A stretch of 21,524 nt of DNA from a virus, in IMG/VR virus record IMGVR_UViG_3300030233_000080, positions 1-21,524 of that record; one strand, 5' to 3'. Numbering within the stretch: position 1 is the stretch's first letter; the number at the start of each line of letters is the position of its first letter. Under the pieces are notes generated by a model. It had not been told where the DNA came from. It did no database searches and saw only the letters and a program-made list of their open reading frames with translations. This document shows, in pieces, positions 8,385 to 21,524 of the stretch. The translations under genes and the position numbers were made by a program.

Positions 8385-8390
8385 GATGGT

Positions 8391-8525
8391 TTACTCCTTG
8401 TCAGGGGTTGGCTGATCGGCTTTGTTGGGCTCAGCCGGTTTGGGCGTCTTCCGCGGAACCGGATTGCCCTTGCTGTCTCGCTGGTACTGGCCGCCGGTCT
8501 GCGGCAGCTTCCGTTTTTTGGTCAT
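8391..8525 (-). CDS. Small basic, proline-rich protein (44 aa)
   Basis: I found this short frame by reading the minus strand between the tail terminator and tube genes. It starts ATGACC, overlapping the previous stop as ATGA, and ends TAA at 8391, seven bases before the tube ATG. The product begins MTKKRKLPQTGGQYQRDSKG and is rich in Lys, Pro and polar residues (KTPKPAEPNKADQPTPDKE at the end), so it is probably unfolded. It fills an otherwise unexplained 137-base gap in a tightly packed operon. No function is recognised; a minor tail or tail-assembly role is inferred from position only. Confidence 0.65.
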   Translation of the reverse strand: MTKKRKLPQTGGQYQRDSKGNPVPRKTPKPAEPNKADQPTPDKE

Positions 8526-9440: not shown

Positions 9441-9890
9441 TCAGCTCTTAGCCTTCGCAGTCTTCGCGGTGGACTTGGAAGCCGGCTTTTTCGCGGTGGA
9501 CTTGGCAGCAGGTGCCGCCGTGGCGCCGGAGCCGGGAGTTTGGCCAGCATCGCTAGCCGGTTCGTTGGAGCCGTCCTGGTTCTCTTCACCAGCGGCCGGA
9601 GTTTCGCCGGCGTCCGAGGTTGCTTTCTCTGGGTCACTGGCACTGTCATCAGCACTATCACCGGAACCAGCCTGTGGATCGGGTTCGCCAGGTGCAGCCC
9701 CGTTTTTGCCGGAGTCTTCGCCATCCGTGATGTTGGCGGGGGTCTGGTTTGGCTCTTGCTCAGCCTCAGCCGGAGAAAGAGCGCCGGAGAGCAGAAGCTC
9801 TTCCGCTTGCTCCGCCTCCATCGACACCACCCCGGTTTTTATGAATCGCCCGCCATGCTTGACGGGCGAATTGACGTTATAGCGCGGCAT
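9441..9890 (-). CDS. FluMu/Mu gp35-like protein with long low-complexity tail
   Basis: The first ~45 residues (MPRYNVNSPVKHGGRFIKTG, then EAEQAEELLLSGAL) match the short N-terminal domain of Mu gp35/FluMu HI1506-type proteins. Residues about 46-125 are an acidic low-complexity stretch of Asp, Glu, Ser, Gly, Pro and Ala. The last ~25 residues switch to a histone-H1-like Lys/Ala tail (AKSTAKKPASKSTAKTAKAK). The gene lies between capsid and connector genes, as in Mu. AAGGGGG precedes the ATG. The role in the head is not established; the charge switch suggests binding to DNA or to another protein, which is inference. Confidence 0.75.
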   Translation of the reverse strand: MPRYNVNSPVKHGGRFIKTGVVSMEAEQAEELLLSGALSPAEAEQEPNQTPANITDGEDSGKNGAAPGEPDPQAGSGDSADDSASDPEKATSDAGETPAAGEENQDGSNEPASDAGQTPGSGATAAPAAKSTAKKPASKSTAKTAKAKS

Positions 9891-9900
9891 AATTGCCCCC

Positions 9901-10824
9901 TTAACCTGCGTTCTGGAACAGGAACCCGGCGGTGATACCGGTGGCCACTGGCTTGCGCTCCATGGTCACTGGATAAATCCAGCTCTTCGCGGAGTTGTCG
10001 TAGTAGCTCTGTTCCACGAGTGGGTGACCTTCCAGGGTGTAGGTGTAACCGTAGGATGGCTCTTCCATGCTGGATGCTTCGGGTGCCACATAAGCCAATA
10101 CAGCGTCTGCGCCCCATACATCTGAGAATTCTCCCTGGGCATCAGCAGCCACCGCCTTGCCAACCACTACGCGGTCAACATCCATCAGCCGGGCCAGCAT
10201 TTCAGCCGTCACCGAGTCCGCGCTGGTGTACTTGAAGCGCTCCAGCACATTCGGGTTTTCTGACGCACCGGCAAAGGCCTTGGCGGAGATCAGCAGGGTG
10301 TTGGGGTAAACGCCGATGGTCTGGCGGATTGCCTCGCGGCCGGCGCGGACGTCCTTGGCCGGATCGCCGGTTTCGGAGGACCACTTCGCGGCGGAGAGAT
10401 CCACCTTATGGTCGGCGTCATAGTTGTTGGCATCGAGCGCGACCTCCGCCTGCTCCACTTCCAGAGCGAGCATCAGCGAGCGCATCACGGTGTTCACCGA
10501 GCGCTGACCCAACTGGATATTCGGAACCTGGTTGGCATCGCGGATGTGCTCGATGGGCAGCTTGCCTTCCAGGGCGTCCTGCACCAGAGCAAACGGTTTG
10601 CCCAGGTAACCAAACTCAATGCGCTTGGTGTTAGCACCGGGCGCGCGCCGCGCGTTGTAAAGGCGGAAGGCTTCCTTACCGAATTCCAGCACCTGGCCGC
10701 CGGATACCGCCACCGGTACACGGGGGAAAAGGAAGCCTCCCACCATCTCCTGTTGACGATAGCCCTGCGCGTGCGTGGTCAGGATCGGGTCAATCACCCG
10801 TACCCCTTTATTGGTCATTGGCAT
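9901..10824 (-). CDS. Major capsid protein
   Basis: This 307-residue protein lies right after the capsid cement gene and the protease/scaffold gene, the place of the major capsid protein. It starts MPMTNKGVRVIDPILTTHAQ with GAGGA seven bases before the ATG. Features typical of HK97-fold subunits are a long helix-rich middle (VMRSLMLALEVEQAEVALDA) and an A-domain-like segment (PNTLLISAKAFAGASENPNV). Its sequence does not look like Mu gpT, so within a Mu-type gene order the capsid seems to come from another lineage of transposable phages. No obvious N-terminal delta domain is present, in agreement with a separate scaffold. Confidence 0.85.
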   Translation of the reverse strand: MPMTNKGVRVIDPILTTHAQGYRQQEMVGGFLFPRVPVAVSGGQVLEFGKEAFRLYNARRAPGANTKRIEFGYLGKPFALVQDALEGKLPIEHIRDANQVPNIQLGQRSVNTVMRSLMLALEVEQAEVALDANNYDADHKVDLSAAKWSSETGDPAKDVRAGREAIRQTIGVYPNTLLISAKAFAGASENPNVLERFKYTSADSVTAEMLARLMDVDRVVVGKAVAADAQGEFSDVWGADAVLAYVAPEASSMEEPSYGYTYTLEGHPLVEQSYYDNSAKSWIYPVTMERKPVATGITAGFLFQNAG

Positions 10825-11168: not shown

Positions 11169-11663
11169 TCAGCCTCCTACCGCTGCCACGGCAGCGTTGT
11201 AGTCACATTTGTGCTGGGCCTGGTATGCCAGCGCTTTCTGGTGAAGCTCCAGGCGCTCCGGGTCCACGGCGTATCCTGTCGGCGCCGCAAAGCTTGCGGT
11301 GGCAACAGCATCGCCGGTGCGCTCACCCGCTCCGCGCTCGCTGAAATCCACGCGCTCGGGCAGGGCCTTGAGGAAATCGCGCAACCAGGTGTCCGCCGGT
11401 TTCTTGATCTCGCCGTCGCTGGAGGAAAAGCACACTTCGCCGGCGGCGTCCTGGGCTTCCATAAAGGCAACCAGGCCATCCTTTTCAGCCGGCAGTACCT
11501 TGCCTTCGGCCACCAATTGCTCAGCAAAGCTGGCGACTTCCTCCTGGCGGGCCTTCGCTTCCTTCCGGGCCAGCGCATCCTCACGAGCCTTGAGCGCGGA
11601 TTCACGGGCGGCAAAATCCGCCGACCCCTCACCGCCTGGCTTGTCTTTGTCTTCAGGTTTCAC
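11169..11663 (-). CDS. Nested in-frame scaffold protein (Mu Z-like)
   Basis: Inside gene I a very strong SD, GGAGGTGA (11676-11669), stands with 8 bases between GGAGG and a GTG at 11663. This GTG is in the I frame at codon 216. Translation from it would give a 164-residue protein starting with fMet then KPEDKDKPGG and containing the coiled coil and C-terminal helices but no protease half. Mu makes its scaffold Z in the same way from within I. The signal is seen in the sequence; use of this start is inferred. Confidence 0.7.
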   Translation of the reverse strand: MKPEDKDKPGGEGSADFAARESALKAREDALARKEAKARQEEVASFAEQLVAEGKVLPAEKDGLVAFMEAQDAAGEVCFSSSDGEIKKPADTWLRDFLKALPERVDFSERGAGERTGDAVATASFAAPTGYAVDPERLELHQKALAYQAQHKCDYNAAVAAVGG

Positions 11664-12308
11664 GGTTGTCACCTCCATCGGTGTGTTGTCCGGGGCAGAA
11701 AATCCCGGTTGAGAAAGTTCTTCCATCGCTTCCTGCTCCGCAGTCTCCGCTGATCGCGCCAGGTAATCCGGAACAACCCGGTTGGCGGTTTCCTCGCCAA
11801 ACTGGGACAGCATCCAGTCCCGCATCCGACGAACGAACTGGGCCAGGGTGGAGCGAGCGTCGAAGTCTTCGGCGGCAAACTCCACCGTCACCACGCCCTC
11901 TTCAGGGCTGGCAAAGCTGGCCGATTTGAGACCGGGAATAGCGGGTGCAGCGGCGCCGAGGAACCCAACGTGGCGCAGATACCAAACGCCAGGCTTCGGG
12001 TTGGATGGGTGCTTTGGCGGGAACCAGGAAGCGGAAACCTTGGGGAAGCGGCCGTCATTAACCATGGCCGCGAACTGGGGCTCTACACGGTCGGGCCGCG
12101 CTTTGACCAGCTCGCCGTCCAATTCAATCGAATCTACCCAGCCATAAGCCGGGTCTTCCAGGGACGGATGGCCAACCACCAGAGGGGCGGAGAACAACGC
12201 CGGGTCATACGCATCAACAGAGGCTTCCATATCCTCGCGGGAAAATGTCCACTCCCGGCCGTTGTTGTCCGTGTGCTGGCCATACTTGAAAATTTCTAAC
12301 AGGCTCAT
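11169..12308 (-). CDS. I: Head maturation protease with C-terminal scaffold (Mu gpI-like)
   Basis: This 379-residue protein matches Mu gene I in order and layout. The N-terminal half (about 1-160) carries the protease-like region: MSLLEIFKYGQHTDNNGREW, PLVVGHPSLEDPAYGWVDSI (His in VVGHP is the likely nucleophile-pair residue of Mu-type proteases) and PKVSASWFPP (a Ser in this strand is the candidate catalytic Ser). A linker follows, then residues about 225-290 form a charged coiled coil typical of scaffolds (ESALKAREDALARKEAKARQ). It is the first gene after a 293-base gap, with GAGGT upstream of the ATG. It cleaves scaffold and itself during head maturation, by analogy with Mu. Catalytic residue choice is inferred from pattern. 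Confidence 0.85.
   Translation of the reverse strand: MSLLEIFKYGQHTDNNGREWTFSREDMEASVDAYDPALFSAPLVVGHPSLEDPAYGWVDSIELDGELVKARPDRVEPQFAAMVNDGRFPKVSASWFPPKHPSNPKPGVWYLRHVGFLGAAAPAIPGLKSASFASPEEGVVTVEFAAEDFDARSTLAQFVRRMRDWMLSQFGEETANRVVPDYLARSAETAEQEAMEELSQPGFSAPDNTPMEVTTVKPEDKDKPGGEGSADFAARESALKAREDALARKEAKARQEEVASFAEQLVAEGKVLPAEKDGLVAFMEAQDAAGEVCFSSSDGEIKKPADTWLRDFLKALPERVDFSERGAGERTGDAVATASFAAPTGYAVDPERLELHQKALAYQAQHKCDYNAAVAAVGG
11669..11676 (-). promoter_or_regulatory. Internal ribosome binding site for nested scaffold
   Basis: GGAGGTGA on the minus strand, eight consecutive bases complementary to the 16S 3' end, with 8 bases between GGAGG and the in-frame GTG at 11663. The codons involved encode Met-Glu-Val-Thr. 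Confidence 0.7.
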
Positions 12309-12341: not shown

Positions 12342-12352
12342 GCTCAGAGTGG
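12342..12352 (-). repeat. CCACTCTGAGC repeat, copy 1
   Basis: This 11-mer is identical to the one at 20343-20353, and a 9-base version (CCACTCTGA) lies at 20293-20301. All copies are in the two non-coding control regions and in the same orientation as the late genes. Confidence 0.5.
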
Positions 12353-12368: not shown

Positions 12369-12380
12369 TGTATTTTGAAG
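12369..12380 (-). repeat. Late-promoter-like motif, copy in PI-like region
   Basis: CTTCAAAATACA on the minus strand, an exact match to the copy at 20303-20314. Similarity extends upstream so that 17 of 23 aligned bases agree. In this copy TTTTG and CAAAA form an inverted repeat with an 8-base spacer, as expected for a dimeric activator site. Confidence 0.6.
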
Positions 12381-12583
12381 AGAGACAAAACAAAAAGGGG
12401 TTGGGCGGGCGCCCGATATCGGCAGGAAATTACGCTTGGGTATTGTGCTCAGGCGGAGCCGCCCAGGTCAAGAATCTGCTTTCGCATCCGTCAGGCATCG
12501 TTGGCTGGCCGCTGTCGGATTTATAAACGGGTCTGGCAGGATTTAAAGCATATAAACGAACGGACGCACCCCTGAATAATTGA

Positions 12584-12601: not shown

Positions 12602-13069
12602 TCAGCCGCTTCCGTAATGGCGGGACACAAACCGCCTGGCAATCTTCAGGATATGGTCCTCGTCATCGTCGCTCACGCCAAGCCAGGGGCGTGCCGGTAT
12701 ATCGCCCCACAAGTGGGGGAACTCTTCCTTGGTACCACCGAAGTGCATCATCGCGGCGTAGGGCCGGTCGCTACCAAACTCCAGGCCATCGGGGCCAAGC
12801 TGATACCTCAGGCCCGGGCCACGCATATCGCCACTGTGGGTCAGGATCTTATCCTTGTTGCGCTTCTTTCTGGCCAGCGTTACATCAGAGAGCGGCTCCC
12901 AGGGGGTGCCATCCGGCGACTCTTCGTCCTCAAAGCGTTGCCGGTGGGTACGCAACAGGAACTCCCCCACCTGCGCGTATAGCGGCTCAAGGTTCGTGCC
13001 CGCGCTTTCCAGGTCAGTCATCACCCTGCGCACCAGGCTGTCGTCATACTCTATGCGAATGCCCGCCAT
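12602..13069 (-). CDS. G: Virion morphogenesis protein (Mu gpG-like)
   Basis: A 155-residue protein, nearly the length of Mu gpG, in the place of gpG after the MuF gene with a TAATG overlap. It begins MAGIRIEYDDSLVRRVMTDL and contains the family hallmarks of phage virion morphogenesis proteins (Phage_tail_S): the SPDGTPWEPLSDVTLARKK segment, an H-S-G-D-M-R turn, a Y-A-A-M-M-H-F-G-G motif and a PARPWLGVSDDD motif near the end. The family acts in head-tail joining or tail attachment. Confidence 0.92.
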   Translation of the reverse strand: MAGIRIEYDDSLVRRVMTDLESAGTNLEPLYAQVGEFLLRTHRQRFEDEESPDGTPWEPLSDVTLARKKRNKDKILTHSGDMRGPGLRYQLGPDGLEFGSDRPYAAMMHFGGTKEEFPHLWGDIPARPWLGVSDDDEDHILKIARRFVSRHYGSG

Positions 13070-14319
13070 TACTCGCTCCTCCGGTACAGGCGTATGCCAA
13101 CCCGGGCGTTCTCCAGGTATTCATCCACCTGGTCCTGCAGTGCCATGACAGCACCCCAGCCGTCGTTGCCCGTCTCACCCAGCGCCAGTGCGGGCATGTC
13201 TTCCCCGGGCAAGTCAAACCGCGCCAGGTAACGCCGGCGCACAACCAGGTCTTCGTTGGTACCGCTACGCTCCAGCCGCAGCCAGACTTCATCCGGGTTC
13301 TGTATCGCTTCAGCCAGCAGTGGCAGGTACCGGCCACGGCCCTCTTTGTTGGCGTCCAGCTGCCCGGTGCGGCGGTTACGGAACAGGTCCGCGCCCACCA
13401 CCAGGGCTTCACCCACCACATCGGTGTAAACGGCAGGGCTATCAAGGGTGGCATCAAAGCGGTCCAGGAAGTCAGCGGTGTACGCTTCGTCGGTCAGATC
13501 TTCCGGCAACAGCGCTTCAGCATCCACCGATCGGGCAGCGGGCAGCTCGTCACCAGGTCGCCGGTTCGGTAGGCCGGGGGCACCGGCCCCAGTGCTGGGC
13601 ACATCCGGCAGTTCCCCAGGCACCGCGCTCTTCAGCCGGCTTTTGCCTGGTGAATGTTCGAAGCCGGGGTCTACCCCCTTGGGTACCCGCACCCGGAACG
13701 GGCCACCCGGGCTGCGCTGGCCGATCTCGCGGGTTTCCCATTCGATGTCCGGAGCGGTGTCCGGACCGCTTTTGCCCAGGTCTTCCAGGTCATCCTCCGT
13801 CACGCCCTCCACATAGCACTGGCAACCCCAACCGTTCATCGGCATGTGGGTGTCCCACCATGGATCATCCGCGCGCAACACCAGCCCGTCCCACGCCAGG
13901 TGTTCCTCGCGTGGGTCTTCCACCGCTGGCGAATGCCGGTACCGGCGAAATGGCAATGCGTCCTGGTTTGCGTCCAGTTGCTGAGCGCGACCGGCGTTAT
14001 AGCTCTGGTACAGGTTGGTCTGGTAGATCACCCGGGTGCGCCAGTTGCGGCCGCCGTTGTAGTCCCAGCCAAACTGCTCAACGATGGAATCGAAGTCTCG
14101 CCGGAAGTCGGCAATGGTTCCGCCGTCGTCAACCACCTTGTCGATCGCAGTGTGGAAGTCAGCAACCAGGTCATTGCGATTTGCACCGGCAACCGCAAAG
14201 CCCCAATCGTTCTCGCCGGCGTAGAAGTCCGTCCAGGCGTTTGTCGGGATATCCAGTTTGCCCCGGATAAACTCGATCTGTTCCTGGAAGGGCAGCGACC
14301 CATAGCTCACACTCGCCAT
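13069..14319 (-). CDS. F: MuF head morphogenesis protein fused to PBECR2-type nuclease domain
   Basis: A 416-residue protein overlapping the portal gene by TGATG. Residues about 40-175 are the MuF (gp30/SPP1 gp7) minor head domain, with YQTNLYQSYNAGRAQQLDAN, the RYRHSPAVEDPREEHLAWDG segment and the closing GWGCQCYVEGV Cys motif. After a Pro/Gly-rich linker (about 200-270), residues about 270-416 look like PBECR2, a phage Barnase/EndoU/colicin E5-D/RelE-like nuclease domain: DVVGEALVVGADLFRNRRTG, GRGRYLPLLAEAIQNPDEVW, a basic VVRRRYLARFDL strand and a C-terminal GWGAVM-containing end. MuF proteins sit inside the head near the portal and can be ejected with DNA, so the domain may act as an injected toxin or modify the host. 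Nuclease activity is inferred from family. Confidence 0.88.
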   Translation of the reverse strand: MASVSYGSLPFQEQIEFIRGKLDIPTNAWTDFYAGENDWGFAVAGANRNDLVADFHTAIDKVVDDGGTIADFRRDFDSIVEQFGWDYNGGRNWRTRVIYQTNLYQSYNAGRAQQLDANQDALPFRRYRHSPAVEDPREEHLAWDGLVLRADDPWWDTHMPMNGWGCQCYVEGVTEDDLEDLGKSGPDTAPDIEWETREIGQRSPGGPFRVRVPKGVDPGFEHSPGKSRLKSAVPGELPDVPSTGAGAPGLPNRRPGDELPAARSVDAEALLPEDLTDEAYTADFLDRFDATLDSPAVYTDVVGEALVVGADLFRNRRTGQLDANKEGRGRYLPLLAEAIQNPDEVWLRLERSGTNEDLVVRRRYLARFDLPGEDMPALALGETGNDGWGAVMALQDQVDEYLENARVGIRLYRRSE

Positions 14320-18329: not shown

Positions 18330-18657
18330 GCGTTACCCCTGTTTTCAACTGCACGTTTTCCAGCTTCAGGGCCAGGCTGTCGAGCTTGGCTTCAATCACG
18401 CTCTGCCCCCGTATGTAATCCTCGCGGCGCACGTAGTGCACGGGCAGGTCCGCCCGCAAATCCATCAATTCCCTCTCAACACGGCGCCATTCGTCGGTGT
18501 CTTTCTCCTGGGCTGAGGCCATGCGATCCAGCCGCACGTCCAGGTCCCGGCTCACGCGTGCCAGCAGCGCGCGGATAACCATAATCAGGAACCCACTCCA
18601 GGCGAGCAGCAACGTCACAAATACTGATATCGCCTTCCAATCCAAAGCTACCTCCAT
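18319..18657 (-). CDS. DUF2730-like membrane/coiled-coil phage protein
   Basis: The product is 112 residues from an ATG that forms TGATG with the Rz stop; a GTG one codon earlier is also possible. Residues about 9-35 form a single membrane helix (ISVFVTLLLAWSGFLIMVIR), and residues 36-105 are a charged coiled coil (RLDRMASAQEKDTDEWRRVE and onward). The layout matches the DUF2730 / Mu gp25-type proteins found in this place of Mu-like phages. The function is unknown; closeness to the spanin genes suggests envelope involvement. Confidence 0.7.
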   Translation of the reverse strand: MEVALDWKAISVFVTLLLAWSGFLIMVIRALLARVSRDLDVRLDRMASAQEKDTDEWRRVERELMDLRADLPVHYVRREDYIRGQSVIEAKLDSLALKLENVQLKTGVTHDG

Positions 18658-19268
18658 CACGGCTGTGTCTCTTCCTGGCTGACCACGTCAATCAGCGCTT
18701 TCAGTTGGTGGGTGTTTGCCTGGCACCACTGGCCGTATCGCTGGGCGTGGCGCAGCAACTCTCGCTGGCTGACGTTGCCGCTGGTAAATTCGGCATCAGC
18801 TCCGGGGGTTGGCCAGGGCTCTGCATCAGGCTGCCCGGCACGTGCCGCTGTGGCTCGCACACCGCCAAGGGCGGCGTTGTAGTCGCGCAGCCAGCCAACA
18901 GTAAACACGCAGCCAGGCACAGGCTCAGGTTTCGCGCCCGGCTCGGGGCGGTAGTGGTCGATGTACGCTTCATCCAGGGCATCCTCCAGTTCGTCTATCC
19001 TGCGTTGTAGTTCGGTGCGCTGGCTGAGGTACGCCGCTTCCTGGTCTCGCGCTTTCGCTTCCTGGCGCCTGCGCTCTACCTCTGCAGCTTTGGCCTGCAT
19101 CAGCAATGCTTCTGTGTGCTTGCGTTTGAGGGCTTCGATGGCCTTGTCGCCTTCGGCCTGAGCCGAGTCGTAGCCCTCTTGCCATGCCTGTTCGCGCTCC
19201 ATGGCCAGGTAGTGGTAACCGCCCAGCAAAGCAGCGCCGGCAACCAGGGCCATAATCAATCCCTTCAT
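18657..19268 (-). CDS. Rz-like i-spanin
   Basis: From the ATG at 19268 (ATGA overlap with the endolysin stop) this is a 203-residue protein. Residues about 1-22 (MKGLIMALVAGAALLGGYHY) form an N-terminal membrane anchor, and residues about 23-105 are a long periplasmic coiled coil (EALLMQAKAAEVERRRQEAK, QRRIDELEDALDEAYIDHY). It has the topology and size of an Rz inner-membrane spanin, which with the nested Rz1 lipoprotein fuses inner and outer membranes at the last step of lysis. The C-terminal third is unusually long for Rz and includes PEPGAKPEPVPGCVFTVGW. Confidence 0.8.
   Translation of the reverse strand: MKGLIMALVAGAALLGGYHYLAMEREQAWQEGYDSAQAEGDKAIEALKRKHTEALLMQAKAAEVERRRQEAKARDQEAAYLSQRTELQRRIDELEDALDEAYIDHYRPEPGAKPEPVPGCVFTVGWLRDYNAALGGVRATAARAGQPDAEPWPTPGADAEFTSGNVSQRELLRHAQRYGQWCQANTHQLKALIDVVSQEETQP
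18701..18973 (-). CDS. Rz1-like o-spanin lipoprotein, nested in Rz
   Basis: A 90-residue frame wholly inside the Rz gene in another frame. From the ATG at 18973 (an ATG three codons upstream at 18982 is an alternative) it has basic residues, a hydrophobic stretch LSLCLAACLLLAGC and a perfect lipobox L-A-G-C with the lipidated Cys at residue 29. The mature part is ~60 residues and Pro-rich (TTTPPLAVCEPQRHVPGSLM), as for Rz1 proteins. Nested Rz/Rz1 pairs are known from lambda. It would be anchored in the outer membrane and bind the Rz coiled coil. The very clear lipobox within an otherwise coiled-coil gene makes chance unlikely. Confidence 0.8.
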   Translation of the reverse strand: MKRTSTTTAPSRARNLSLCLAACLLLAGCATTTPPLAVCEPQRHVPGSLMQSPGQPPELMPNLPAATSASESCCATPSDTASGARQTPTN

Positions 19269-19933
19269 CCGGCCCACCGTTGCGGACAAACGCCAGAACC
19301 CCACCCATGTCCGTGGTACAGCGGTTCCCAGCGCTCCAGAATCAGGCTTGGGTAGTGTCGGTTCTCACGGAAATTGGCAGCGGAGCGGCCCGAGTTGAAC
19401 CGTTCCACCGAATCAAACCAGGCCAGCGGATCCGCCCCCTTAGCGGAGGCCAGCCGTTTGTCTCTGTACACCCATCCCAGCCCGCCGTTATAGGCGGACA
19501 ACACAAAGGCCCACTGCTCGCAGGGGGCCGCGGCCTGGATACGGTCGTTCAGCCACACGGTGTACTGCACCATGGCGCGGATGGCCCAGCGCGGATCGAG
19601 CGGCTGGGCATCCGACAGGTCGGGGTAGATCGAAGCAATCCAGGTGGCGGTGGCAGGCATGAACTGGGTCATGCCCTGGGCGCCCACAGGGCTGCGGGCA
19701 TCGGATCTCCAACGGCTTTCCTGGTGCACCAGCCCGGCCAGCGTGGCTACCGGGGCCTGCAGCCCGTAGTGGGCCCGGGCCACCCGGGTGAGTTCCGCTT
19801 GGTAGGCCTTGGCGCTGTGGGGCACCGTATCGGCAGCGCCAACCCCGCCGGCAAAGAAACCCAACAGGAAGGCCAGCAACCCTGCAGCAGCCCAACGAAC
19901 AACGAAAATAGATACTTTGTTTTTGCCACCCAT
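19265..19933 (-). CDS. Lytic transglycosylase endolysin (SLT family)
   Basis: A 222-residue protein from the ATG at 19933, one base after the holin stop (TGATATG); an upstream in-frame start would overlap the holin gene. Residues about 9-34 form an N-terminal signal or signal-arrest helix (VVRWAAAGLLAFLLGFFAGG followed by VGAAD). The SLT catalytic domain has the Glu in LVHQESRW (E72), the G-A-Q-G-M-T-Q-F-M-P motif at 84-93, and AYNGG at 147-151. It cleaves the glycan strand of peptidoglycan, forming 1,6-anhydro products. The secretory N-terminus suggests export independent of a large-hole holin. Confidence 0.9.
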   Translation of the reverse strand: MGGKNKVSIFVVRWAAAGLLAFLLGFFAGGVGAADTVPHSAKAYQAELTRVARAHYGLQAPVATLAGLVHQESRWRSDARSPVGAQGMTQFMPATATWIASIYPDLSDAQPLDPRWAIRAMVQYTVWLNDRIQAAAPCEQWAFVLSAYNGGLGWVYRDKRLASAKGADPLAWFDSVERFNSGRSAANFRENRHYPSLILERWEPLYHGHGWGSGVCPQRWAG

Positions 19934-19934
19934 A

Positions 19935-20231
19935 TCAGAGCCCCAGGGTGAGGCCCAGCACACAAGCCAGCACCACCAGGGCGCGACGGCAGGAAGCCAT
20001 CACGGCCACCCAGCCGGTAAGCGTGTGAGGGCGTTGGTAGGGGAACAGCGCACGGTCAAGCCAGTAGGCAAGGACAACAGCCAGGGTAACCAGGGCCAGC
20101 TTGTAGGCCACAATCGGCAACTGCTGGGGCGCGAGCCAAGCCAGTGACGCCAGCAGGCACAAGGCAACAATGGCCCAGCCAAACAGCCGGGGAATCGGCA
20201 AGCACCAGGGGAAACGGGGGTTTTCAGGCAT
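19935..20231 (-). CDS. Holin-like membrane protein
   Basis: A 98-residue protein first in the lysis cassette, with three hydrophobic segments at about 16-35 (LFGWAIVALCLLASLAWLAP), 38-58 (LPIVAYKLALVTLAVVLAYW) and 73-98 (WVAVMASCRRALVVLACVLG). GGAGG lies eight bases before the ATG. Size, topology and a place directly before the endolysin fit a phage holin or pinholin that triggers lysis timing. I cannot name the exact holin family with certainty. Confidence 0.8.
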   Translation of the reverse strand: MPENPRFPWCLPIPRLFGWAIVALCLLASLAWLAPQQLPIVAYKLALVTLAVVLAYWLDRALFPYQRPHTLTGWVAVMASCRRALVVLACVLGLTLGL

Positions 20232-20302
20232 GGCGGCATCCTCCAGATCACAGGTAATAAAACCGTTTAAGTGATCTTCAGAATGCGCTCAATCAGAGTG
20301 GG

Positions 20303-20314
20303 TGTATTTTGAAG
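20303..20314 (-). repeat. Late-promoter-like motif, copy in Plys-like region
   Basis: CTTCAAAATACA on the minus strand, identical to 12369-12380, preceded by TTATG where the other copy has TTTTG. I noticed no other copy of this 12-mer in the window. Confidence 0.6.
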
Positions 20315-20342
20315 GGGAGCATAAGCGGGGCGCCGGGAAAAC

Positions 20343-20353
20343 GCTCAGAGTGG
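20343..20353 (-). repeat. CCACTCTGAGC repeat, copy 2
   Basis: Exact match to 12342-12352. It lies 28 bases upstream (in late-gene direction) of the shared 12-mer, whereas in the other region the repeat is 16 bases downstream of it. Confidence 0.45.
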
Positions 20354-20393
20354 AAAGGGTAAGGCCATTCGCCAGAAAAGAAAAGGCTGAGAA

Positions 20394-20926: not shown

Positions 20927-21524
20927 TCAAAGTGTTGGCCATTCGCAAGTCTCGCGTAGCGGCTTCATTGCGTTATCCATGCCAGCAGTATCGAAAATAG
21001 CGGTGACGGGGCTTTCGTTGTATGGAGTAATTTGGGCAACGAATTTATCAGCTGACATCATCCATTTGAGAAAGCCGATGGTTCCTCTATCCGGATGAAA
21101 AGTTGCCTGGCTGTCAGTTGATAAATTCCAATCCTTTGTCACGGCATCTTCGGATCCGATACGGGTTAGCACCTCACCGTTTCTGCCGAGGTAATCGTTC
21201 CAAGTGATGTAGAGCTCAGTCTTATTACTCTTGCACCTTGCGATCAGGGTAACCGGCTTTCCAAACTTCGATTTCCCACTGTCAGCCTTAAGAGCCAGCA
21301 CCACGGTTTTTGAGTCATCAACAGGATTTTTTTCTGCAGACACCTGCCACTTGCCTTTGCCCGATATATTTGTGGGTTCAGCTTGCGGACCGTCCAGCCC
21401 CCTCTTTCCAGAGACTCTGTCGTAGCAAGAAAGGCGATCAAGGTCACCAGCTTTGGCAGCGCAGCTGGCGATTTCCTTTTCGAGGCTGGCCACAGCAGCG
21501 GCACTTATGAACAATAGTGGCAGT
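20927..21524 (-). CDS. VasI/TagO-family periplasmic protein, 5' end outside window
   Basis: The frame is open to the right edge; residues encoded beyond a TTG at 21514 (LPLLFISAAAVA) continue a hydrophobic signal-peptide core, so the real start lies outside the window. The mature part has C-A-A-K-A-G-D-L-D-R-L-S-C-Y-D near the N-terminus, a motif common in small secreted proteins. The main domain matches the type VI secretion-associated VasI/TagO family: KWQVSAEKNPVDDSKTVVLA, VTLIARCKSNKTELYITWND, W-N-L-S-T-D-S-Q-A-T-F, and SPVTAIFDTAGMDNAMKPLR then ETCEW at the end. No other T6SS gene is near, so in this phage setting it is probably an envelope-acting accessory gene. Confidence 0.8.
   Translation of the reverse strand, partial: LPLLFISAAAVASLEKEIASCAAKAGDLDRLSCYDRVSGKRGLDGPQAEPTNISGKGKWQVSAEKNPVDDSKTVVLALKADSGKSKFGKPVTLIARCKSNKTELYITWNDYLGRNGEVLTRIGSEDAVTKDWNLSTDSQATFHPDRGTIGFLKWMMSADKFVAQITPYNESPVTAIFDTAGMDNAMKPLRETCEWPTL

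Follow-up and report, generated by a model that had tools for sequence, protein, structure and literature searches.

The late block of the phage fragment studied here raises the question of how a Mu-like phage switches on its lysis and head-building genes, and whether it may do so through one regulator acting at two promoters. The window, which is the whole stretch of DNA analysed, is the 21.5-kb virus record IMGVR_UViG_3300030233_000080, a fragment that does not include the early region. As the first-pass annotation stated, the late block contains only two sizeable non-coding gaps. The one ahead of the holin gene measures 223 nt and the one ahead of gene I 293 nt, the remaining gaps being about 85 nt or shorter; a 137-nt space at 8385-8521 contains a small open frame. 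The first gap is followed by genes for a holin, a lytic transglycosylase and an Rz-like spanin and then by those for the terminase, portal and MuF proteins, and the second by the head maturation protease gene (gene I) and then the capsid gene. Both gene homologies and gene order agree with the earlier proposal that the two gaps occupy the positions of Mu Plys and PI, before the lysis genes and between genes G and I, respectively.

A sequence shared by the two late gaps

The two copies of a 12-mer, CTTCAAAATACA, that had been reported on the minus strand at 20314-20303 and 12380-12369 are both exact, and the window holds no further copy, even when two mismatches are allowed. The extended alignment was likewise reproduced, the 23-mers CTTATGCTCCCCTTCAAAATACA and GTTTTGTCTCTCTTCAAAATACA agreeing at 17 of 23 positions, and the dyad TTTTG-N8-CAAAA is present in the gene I copy as described; the lysis copy reads TTATG-N8-CAAAA, with its one mismatch in the distal half-site. 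By chance, a 12-mer common to both gaps occurred in 3 of 2000 Markov pairs and in 16 of approximately 1000 pairs of random stretches of the window (about 1.6%), while agreement at 17 of 23 positions occurred in 84 of 2000. Taken by itself, the sharing of the 12-mer is suggestive of function, short of proof. The observation is settled by comparative tests, since a matrix trained on relatives ranks both sites at the top.

This matrix was derived from the sites of 27 relatives, the window and its nearest relative (L001) being excluded. The two sites of the window ranked first and second, at 29.96 and 25.86 bits, compared with -1.58 bits for the third-best position in the window and a peak of 16.4 bits in 100 Markov windows. 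In six other contigs the late sites alone stood at the top, the own sites of those phages being part of the training set. Many copies in coding DNA had been named as an outcome that would speak against a regulatory role, and the only copies in the window are the two in the late gaps. Within the window, the expectation that the motif would also precede other late operons was not borne out, as the matrix scan gave no third site, neither before the tape-measure gene nor in the space at 8385-8521, and further late sites of the Mu type (P, mom) were not found in the window.

Anatomy of the predicted promoters

The 12-mer is not a whole operator but comprises the promoter-proximal half-site of a dyad together with a -35-like hexamer. 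Its designation as a late-activator site is thus retained in part, in that CTTCAAAATACA is the core of a larger unit, and corrected in part, in that it is not the complete operator. In both gaps the unit consists of the dyad, then AC, then a -10 hexamer (Table 1).

Table 1. Late genes and predicted promoter elements of the window
Feature	Position	Strand	Remark
Holin (Holin_2-3, phrog_1528)	19935..20231	-	first lysis-operon gene
Lytic transglycosylase (endolysin)	19265..19963	-	
Rz-like spanin	18657..19304	-	
Head maturation protease, gene I homolog (phrog_976)	11169..12308	-	first capsid-operon gene
Shared 12-mer CTTCAAAATACA, lysis copy	20303..20314	-	
Shared 12-mer CTTCAAAATACA, gene I copy	12369..12380	-	
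Lysis promoter, activator dyad TTATG-N8-CAAAA, 18 bp	20307..20324	-	predicted; L001 has exact CTTCAAAATACA there
Lysis promoter, -35-like hexamer AATACA	20303..20308	-	overlaps proximal half of dyad
Lysis promoter, -10 hexamer CATTCT	20280..20285	-	fixed-distance A...T columns
Lysis promoter, predicted +1	20272	-	from Mu Pm geometry; +/- few bases
Gene I promoter, activator dyad TTTTG-N8-CAAAA, 18 bp	12373..12390	-	predicted
Gene I promoter, -35-like hexamer AATACA	12369..12374	-	
Gene I promoter, -10 hexamer CACTCT	12346..12351	-	
Gene I promoter, predicted +1	12338	-	numbered as Mu Pm

When the dyads of the gaps were aligned on their centres, with the -10 region left unused, a -10-like hexamer appeared at +31 to +36 from the dyad centre. 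Across 35 non-redundant sites A is found at +32 in 33, T at +36 in 33 and G at +37 in 27, and the mean -10 score at this offset was 1.79, against at most -3.2 in shuffles. The first collection of sites had required AC after the dyad; in a recount that dropped this requirement, AC was present at +11/+12 from the centre in all 45 unique dyads with no more than one mismatch, and the A and T of the -10 in 42 of the 45. The AC falls in the position of the -35 hexamer, 17 bp before the -10. The hexamer AATACA matches TTGACA at three of six positions, which is the poor -35 expected of Mor/C-type promoters, and the fixed distance between dyad and -10 hexamer is also as expected of this type; the centre of the dyad is 30 bp upstream of the -10, as in Mu Pm, which would place it near -43.5 relative to the predicted start.

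In Mu Pm the binding of Mor has been mapped to -51 to -36, centred at -43.5 (PMC4287176, PMC4390567). The predicted promoters resemble Mu Pm in their dyad of two 5-bp arms, which is centred at -43.5 and overlaps a poor -35, and, as relatives suggest, in the PF08765 family of the putative activator, and Mu Pm has TATCCT, followed by G, at the identical +31 to +36 offset. With the same -10 offset, the window's sites have the geometry of a Mor promoter that has been mapped by experiment. The arms, however, are 8 bp apart in the window (an 18-bp element) and 6 bp apart in Mu Pm (16 bp), and read TTTTG/CAAAA in the former and AGTAA/TTAAT in the latter; AC follows the dyad in window-type sites, and the window's promoters would serve lysis and capsid genes whereas Mu Pm serves the middle operon. 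The likeness to Mu Plys and PI, which have a 10-bp match in common (PMC4461284), lies in their gene-order places and in a dyad-binding activator of the Mor/C family, deduced for the window from its relatives. In Mu, C is made in the middle stage by Mor, whereas the relatives considered here have one Mor/C gene each. Judged by sequence features, the anatomy supports the view that the two sites are further members of the known Mor/C promoter kind.

As a separate observation, the core of the lysis promoter from -35 to -10 (window 20314-20276, minus strand) forms a long imperfect inverted repeat, CTTCAAAATAC...GCATTCTGAAG, which is partly kept in L001 and absent from the gene I promoter.

Matching pairs of sites in related phages

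The comparison covered relatives by holin (L001-L080), relatives by gene I (L081-L094 and L137-L228) and the contigs, whole or nearly whole, of ten phages. L001 carries the 12-mer without mismatch, 81 bp upstream of its holin gene. In more distant phages both gaps contain TTTTG-N8-CAAA[AT][GT]AC, as in L081, where identical copies of TTTTGCCCGCGTTCAAAAGAC precede the lysis genes and gene I. Every phage has a version of its own that is common to its two gaps: L094/L137 have TTTAGCCCCCGTTCAA, L090 has TTTTG-N6-CAAAATGAC, L228 has CCTGCGAACGCGTTCGCA and L190 has TTAAAC-N-TTAAAAGACC, a form to which that of L164 is related. When the lysis and gene I gaps of 23 non-redundant phages were compared by their best 21-mer match, the mean was 17.8 positions within phages and 15.4 between them, a level of within-phage matching that was reached by 0 of 20,000 permutations. 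Matches within a phage extend up to 21 of 21, and the sequences differ between lineages. Matching within phages and divergence between them is the pattern expected of sites whose binding factor is encoded by the same phage. Alignment of the same gaps in related prophages, which had been suggested as a check, thus yielded matching, lineage-specific pairs at a conserved position. Indeed a paired arrangement of predicted late promoters is found again in many Mu-like phages, each lineage having its own word.

It should be noted that the 21-mer test rates Mu's own Plys/PI pair as weak (15 of 21); as it does not clearly recover this pair, it can overlook divergent ones. No convincing site pair was found in L149, L150, L161 and L191, and in the many phages of the L002-L036 type the lysis gap lacks such a dyad immediately upstream of the holin gene, where the sequence resembles a reading frame that extends to the gene. 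Several relatives have a third copy directly before the tape-measure gene, which is absent in the window. G002 (L116) also shows, at 38929 and near the right end of the contig, a fourth, weaker site upstream of a Dam-like methylase frame; the site recalls the Mu mom promoter, and its AC and -10 fit poorly.

Similar arrangements are seen in named phages. Phage B3 (L136), a Pseudomonas phage of the genus Beetrevirus with the same gene order as the window, has three dyads, TTTTCG-N6-CGAAAA, at 11566, 19835 and 26818, which precede the holin, protease and tape-measure genes, respectively, and are predicted to be late promoters; the B3 genome has no other copy at up to two mismatches, the dyad's own reverse reading aside. 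At the first two dyads (11566 and 19835) a -10 hexamer stands at the same offset as in the window, while B3 differs in operator sequence and spacing and in having no AC after the dyad. A single Mor homolog is annotated in B3, ORF1, with which the leftward early operon ends. Chromohalobacter phage YPCBV-1 (L135), the nearest annotated phage by gene I (44%), has the pair CCGCTGAAGTCCTTCGCCT at 10506 and 18656, in its lysis-side and gene I gaps, with a match of 20 of 21 (CCGCTGAAGTCCTTCG). Its operator is a different one, and the gene for its reported Mor protein (ORF18) adjoins the lysis genes. In D3112 (L271) the corresponding gaps contain the pair CAG[CT]CGTTGAACCCCTTCC at 2692 and 11736, matching at 19 of 21 positions, with -10-like hexamers at a constant distance. 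The literature searched yielded work on Mu, described no operator for B3-like phages and gave no binding location for Mor/C-family activators of transposable phages outside Mu.

Covariation of the sites with a single Mor/C-family protein

No Mor/C gene was found in the window and, as this is a fragment without the early region, its activator is deduced from relatives. A PF08765 (Mor/C) protein above cut-off is encoded by 17 of 29 related viral records, one in each, and a match is absent from 9 of the 29, several of them fragments; most relatives that carry such sites have a protein of this family. No related viral record has more than one PF08765 match, and hence none has a separate C gene besides Mor. 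A search for a closer relative with both the window's operator and a Mor gene returned only L001, which spans 12.2 kb and has no Mor. In most relatives the gene is found at one genome end, at the close of the early operon and oriented against the late genes, with exceptions that include L111-L114 and L245. The Mor of one relative aligns with the solved Mu Mor at E 1.2e-6 (PDB 1rr7), and its alignment with Mu C is weak; the solved entries for Mu Mor and C are PDB 1rr7, 9l0y and 9l0x.

In the 26 phages that have both the sites and a Mor protein, recognition-helix types go with operator types: TTTTG-N8-CAAAA is accompanied by VR[AG]IYK, the N6 or N7 form of the dyad by ENA[VI]Y[RK] or VNAIYR, and TTAA-type sites by [VL]QW[IV]Y, the Mor of a few many-contig host genomes (e.g. 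G010/G030 and G032) being assigned by position or as the best candidate rather than by contiguity. The distance between sites correlates with that between Mor helix-turn-helix regions (r 0.69-0.70), and the partial Mantel r is 0.65 when MuF is controlled for, 0.54 for SLT (endolysin) and 0.69 for the small terminase (each p 0.0001; 21-22 phages). Operator sequence therefore tracks the single Mor/C-family protein better than it tracks the late genes. An equally good correlation with the sites is obtained for the N-terminal half of Mor as for the helix-turn-helix, so that what the test indicates is the protein, not particular residues. The first-pass annotation had drawn the parallel to C, the Mor/C-type activator of Mu Plys and PI; membership of the Mor/C family and covariation with the sites uphold this in part, but the relatives point to a lone Mor-type protein, not to a C acting after Mor. 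Given that the single Mor/C gene closes the early operon in most of them, the activator is more aptly called a Mor-type protein that takes the role of C.

The lysis gaps of L066, L070 and L076-L079, together with L111-L114, contain palindromes of the GAAACGTTTC type before the lysis gene. These phages have a weak, partial PF08765 match only, in a regulator whose gene lies about midway along the record, and possibly possess a separate type of regulator.

Proposed activation of the late operons and alternative explanations

The proposal of two activator-type late promoters is supported by conserved position, matching within phages, fixed -10 spacing and covariation with Mor/C. With considerable confidence we regard the two sites as Mu-like (B3-type) late promoters activated by the single Mor/C-family protein of the phage; we infer that the window's phage has such a protein, that the protein binds both sites and that transcription starts there. 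Most likely, to judge from the sequences compared, this activator would turn on the lysis and head-building genes together. In the proposed mechanism the single activator would be made from the early operon and bind, as a dimer, to TTTTG-N8-CAAAA, whose centre lies 43.5 bp ahead of the predicted start when numbered as in Mu Pm. The bound protein would touch the weak -35 and recruit host sigma-70 RNA polymerase to a -10 hexamer of the form [CT]AnnnT, followed by G. The promoter in the lysis gap would then drive the holin-endolysin-spanin-terminase-portal block, and that in the gene I gap the protease-capsid-tail block.

Another phage regulator, of the repressor/Cro type, might instead silence or time the late operons by using the dyads as its operators, the promoters themselves being real. 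Operators of phage repressors are likewise dyads, and the early regions of several relatives carry similar palindromes, such as TTTTGCCCATAGGCAAAA. The late sites, however, overlap a poor -35, which is the position of an activator, at the exact Mu Mor spacing, and they covary with Mor; we consider this explanation improbable. A host factor, for instance a global regulator, could also bind both sites and merely be exploited by the phage, as host factors frequently act at phage promoters. Under such a scheme a common motif would be expected, whereas the sites match within and differ between phages and are confined to late gaps, which renders the action of a host factor very unlikely.

It is similarly doubtful in the extreme that the gaps are not promoters at all but house an element acting at the DNA level, such as a gyrase, packaging or transposition site. 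Mu does have a strong gyrase site in the gap before gene I, but the sequence of the window's gene I site is also present in the lysis gap, a -10 lies at a constant distance from it, and in relatives the tape-measure gene is preceded by a third copy. A last alternative, in which the 12-mer is shared by coincidence or as a functionless remnant of a duplication, draws on the rate at which 12-mers were shared in the Markov and random-stretch pairs given above. Against this stand the independent matrix ranks, the position, the -10 spacing and conservation in dozens of phages, and the matched block is the functional core while its flanks have diverged; this explanation is the most remote of those weighed here.

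Beyond the window, we lean slightly towards a broader proposal, in which B3-like and other Mu-like phages would use one early Mor-type activator to drive all late operons directly, a two-stage scheme as opposed to the three stages of Mu, with operators that have diverged into mutually orthogonal classes in step with the recognition helix. In the code proposed, an R-[AG] helix would specify TTTTG-N8-CAAAA, N-A would specify TTTTG-N6-CAAAA and Q-[WA] the TTAA type. If true, the operator classes would form a readable specificity code for the Mor/C family. For dozens of phages, B3 and D3112 among them, the comparison provides exact predicted operators and starts. With many operators paired with their own regulator, direct tests become possible of how Mor/C proteins recognise DNA and of how late transcription is wired, and the pairs constitute a set of possibly orthogonal activators and promoters.

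Other features of the relatives and the window

The early-region palindrome TTTTGCCCATAGGCAAAA was considered as a late site and rejected, its form being constant across the N8 and N6 classes. As it keeps one form across these late-site classes, its binder differs from that of the late sites, and it is possibly a repressor operator. Followed by TATTTGTTTGGA, it occurs in the early region at 9877 (-) in G011, 10737 (-) in G012, 27942 (+) in G014 and 8894 (-) in G016.

Within the window, the MuF-like head protein (13069-14319, minus strand) carries a nuclease-like PBECR2 domain (PF18810) at its C-terminus. A protein encoded at 20927-21523 on the minus strand, immediately upstream of the lysis region, matches VasI (PF11319, type VI secretion) and is probably the product of an accessory gene.
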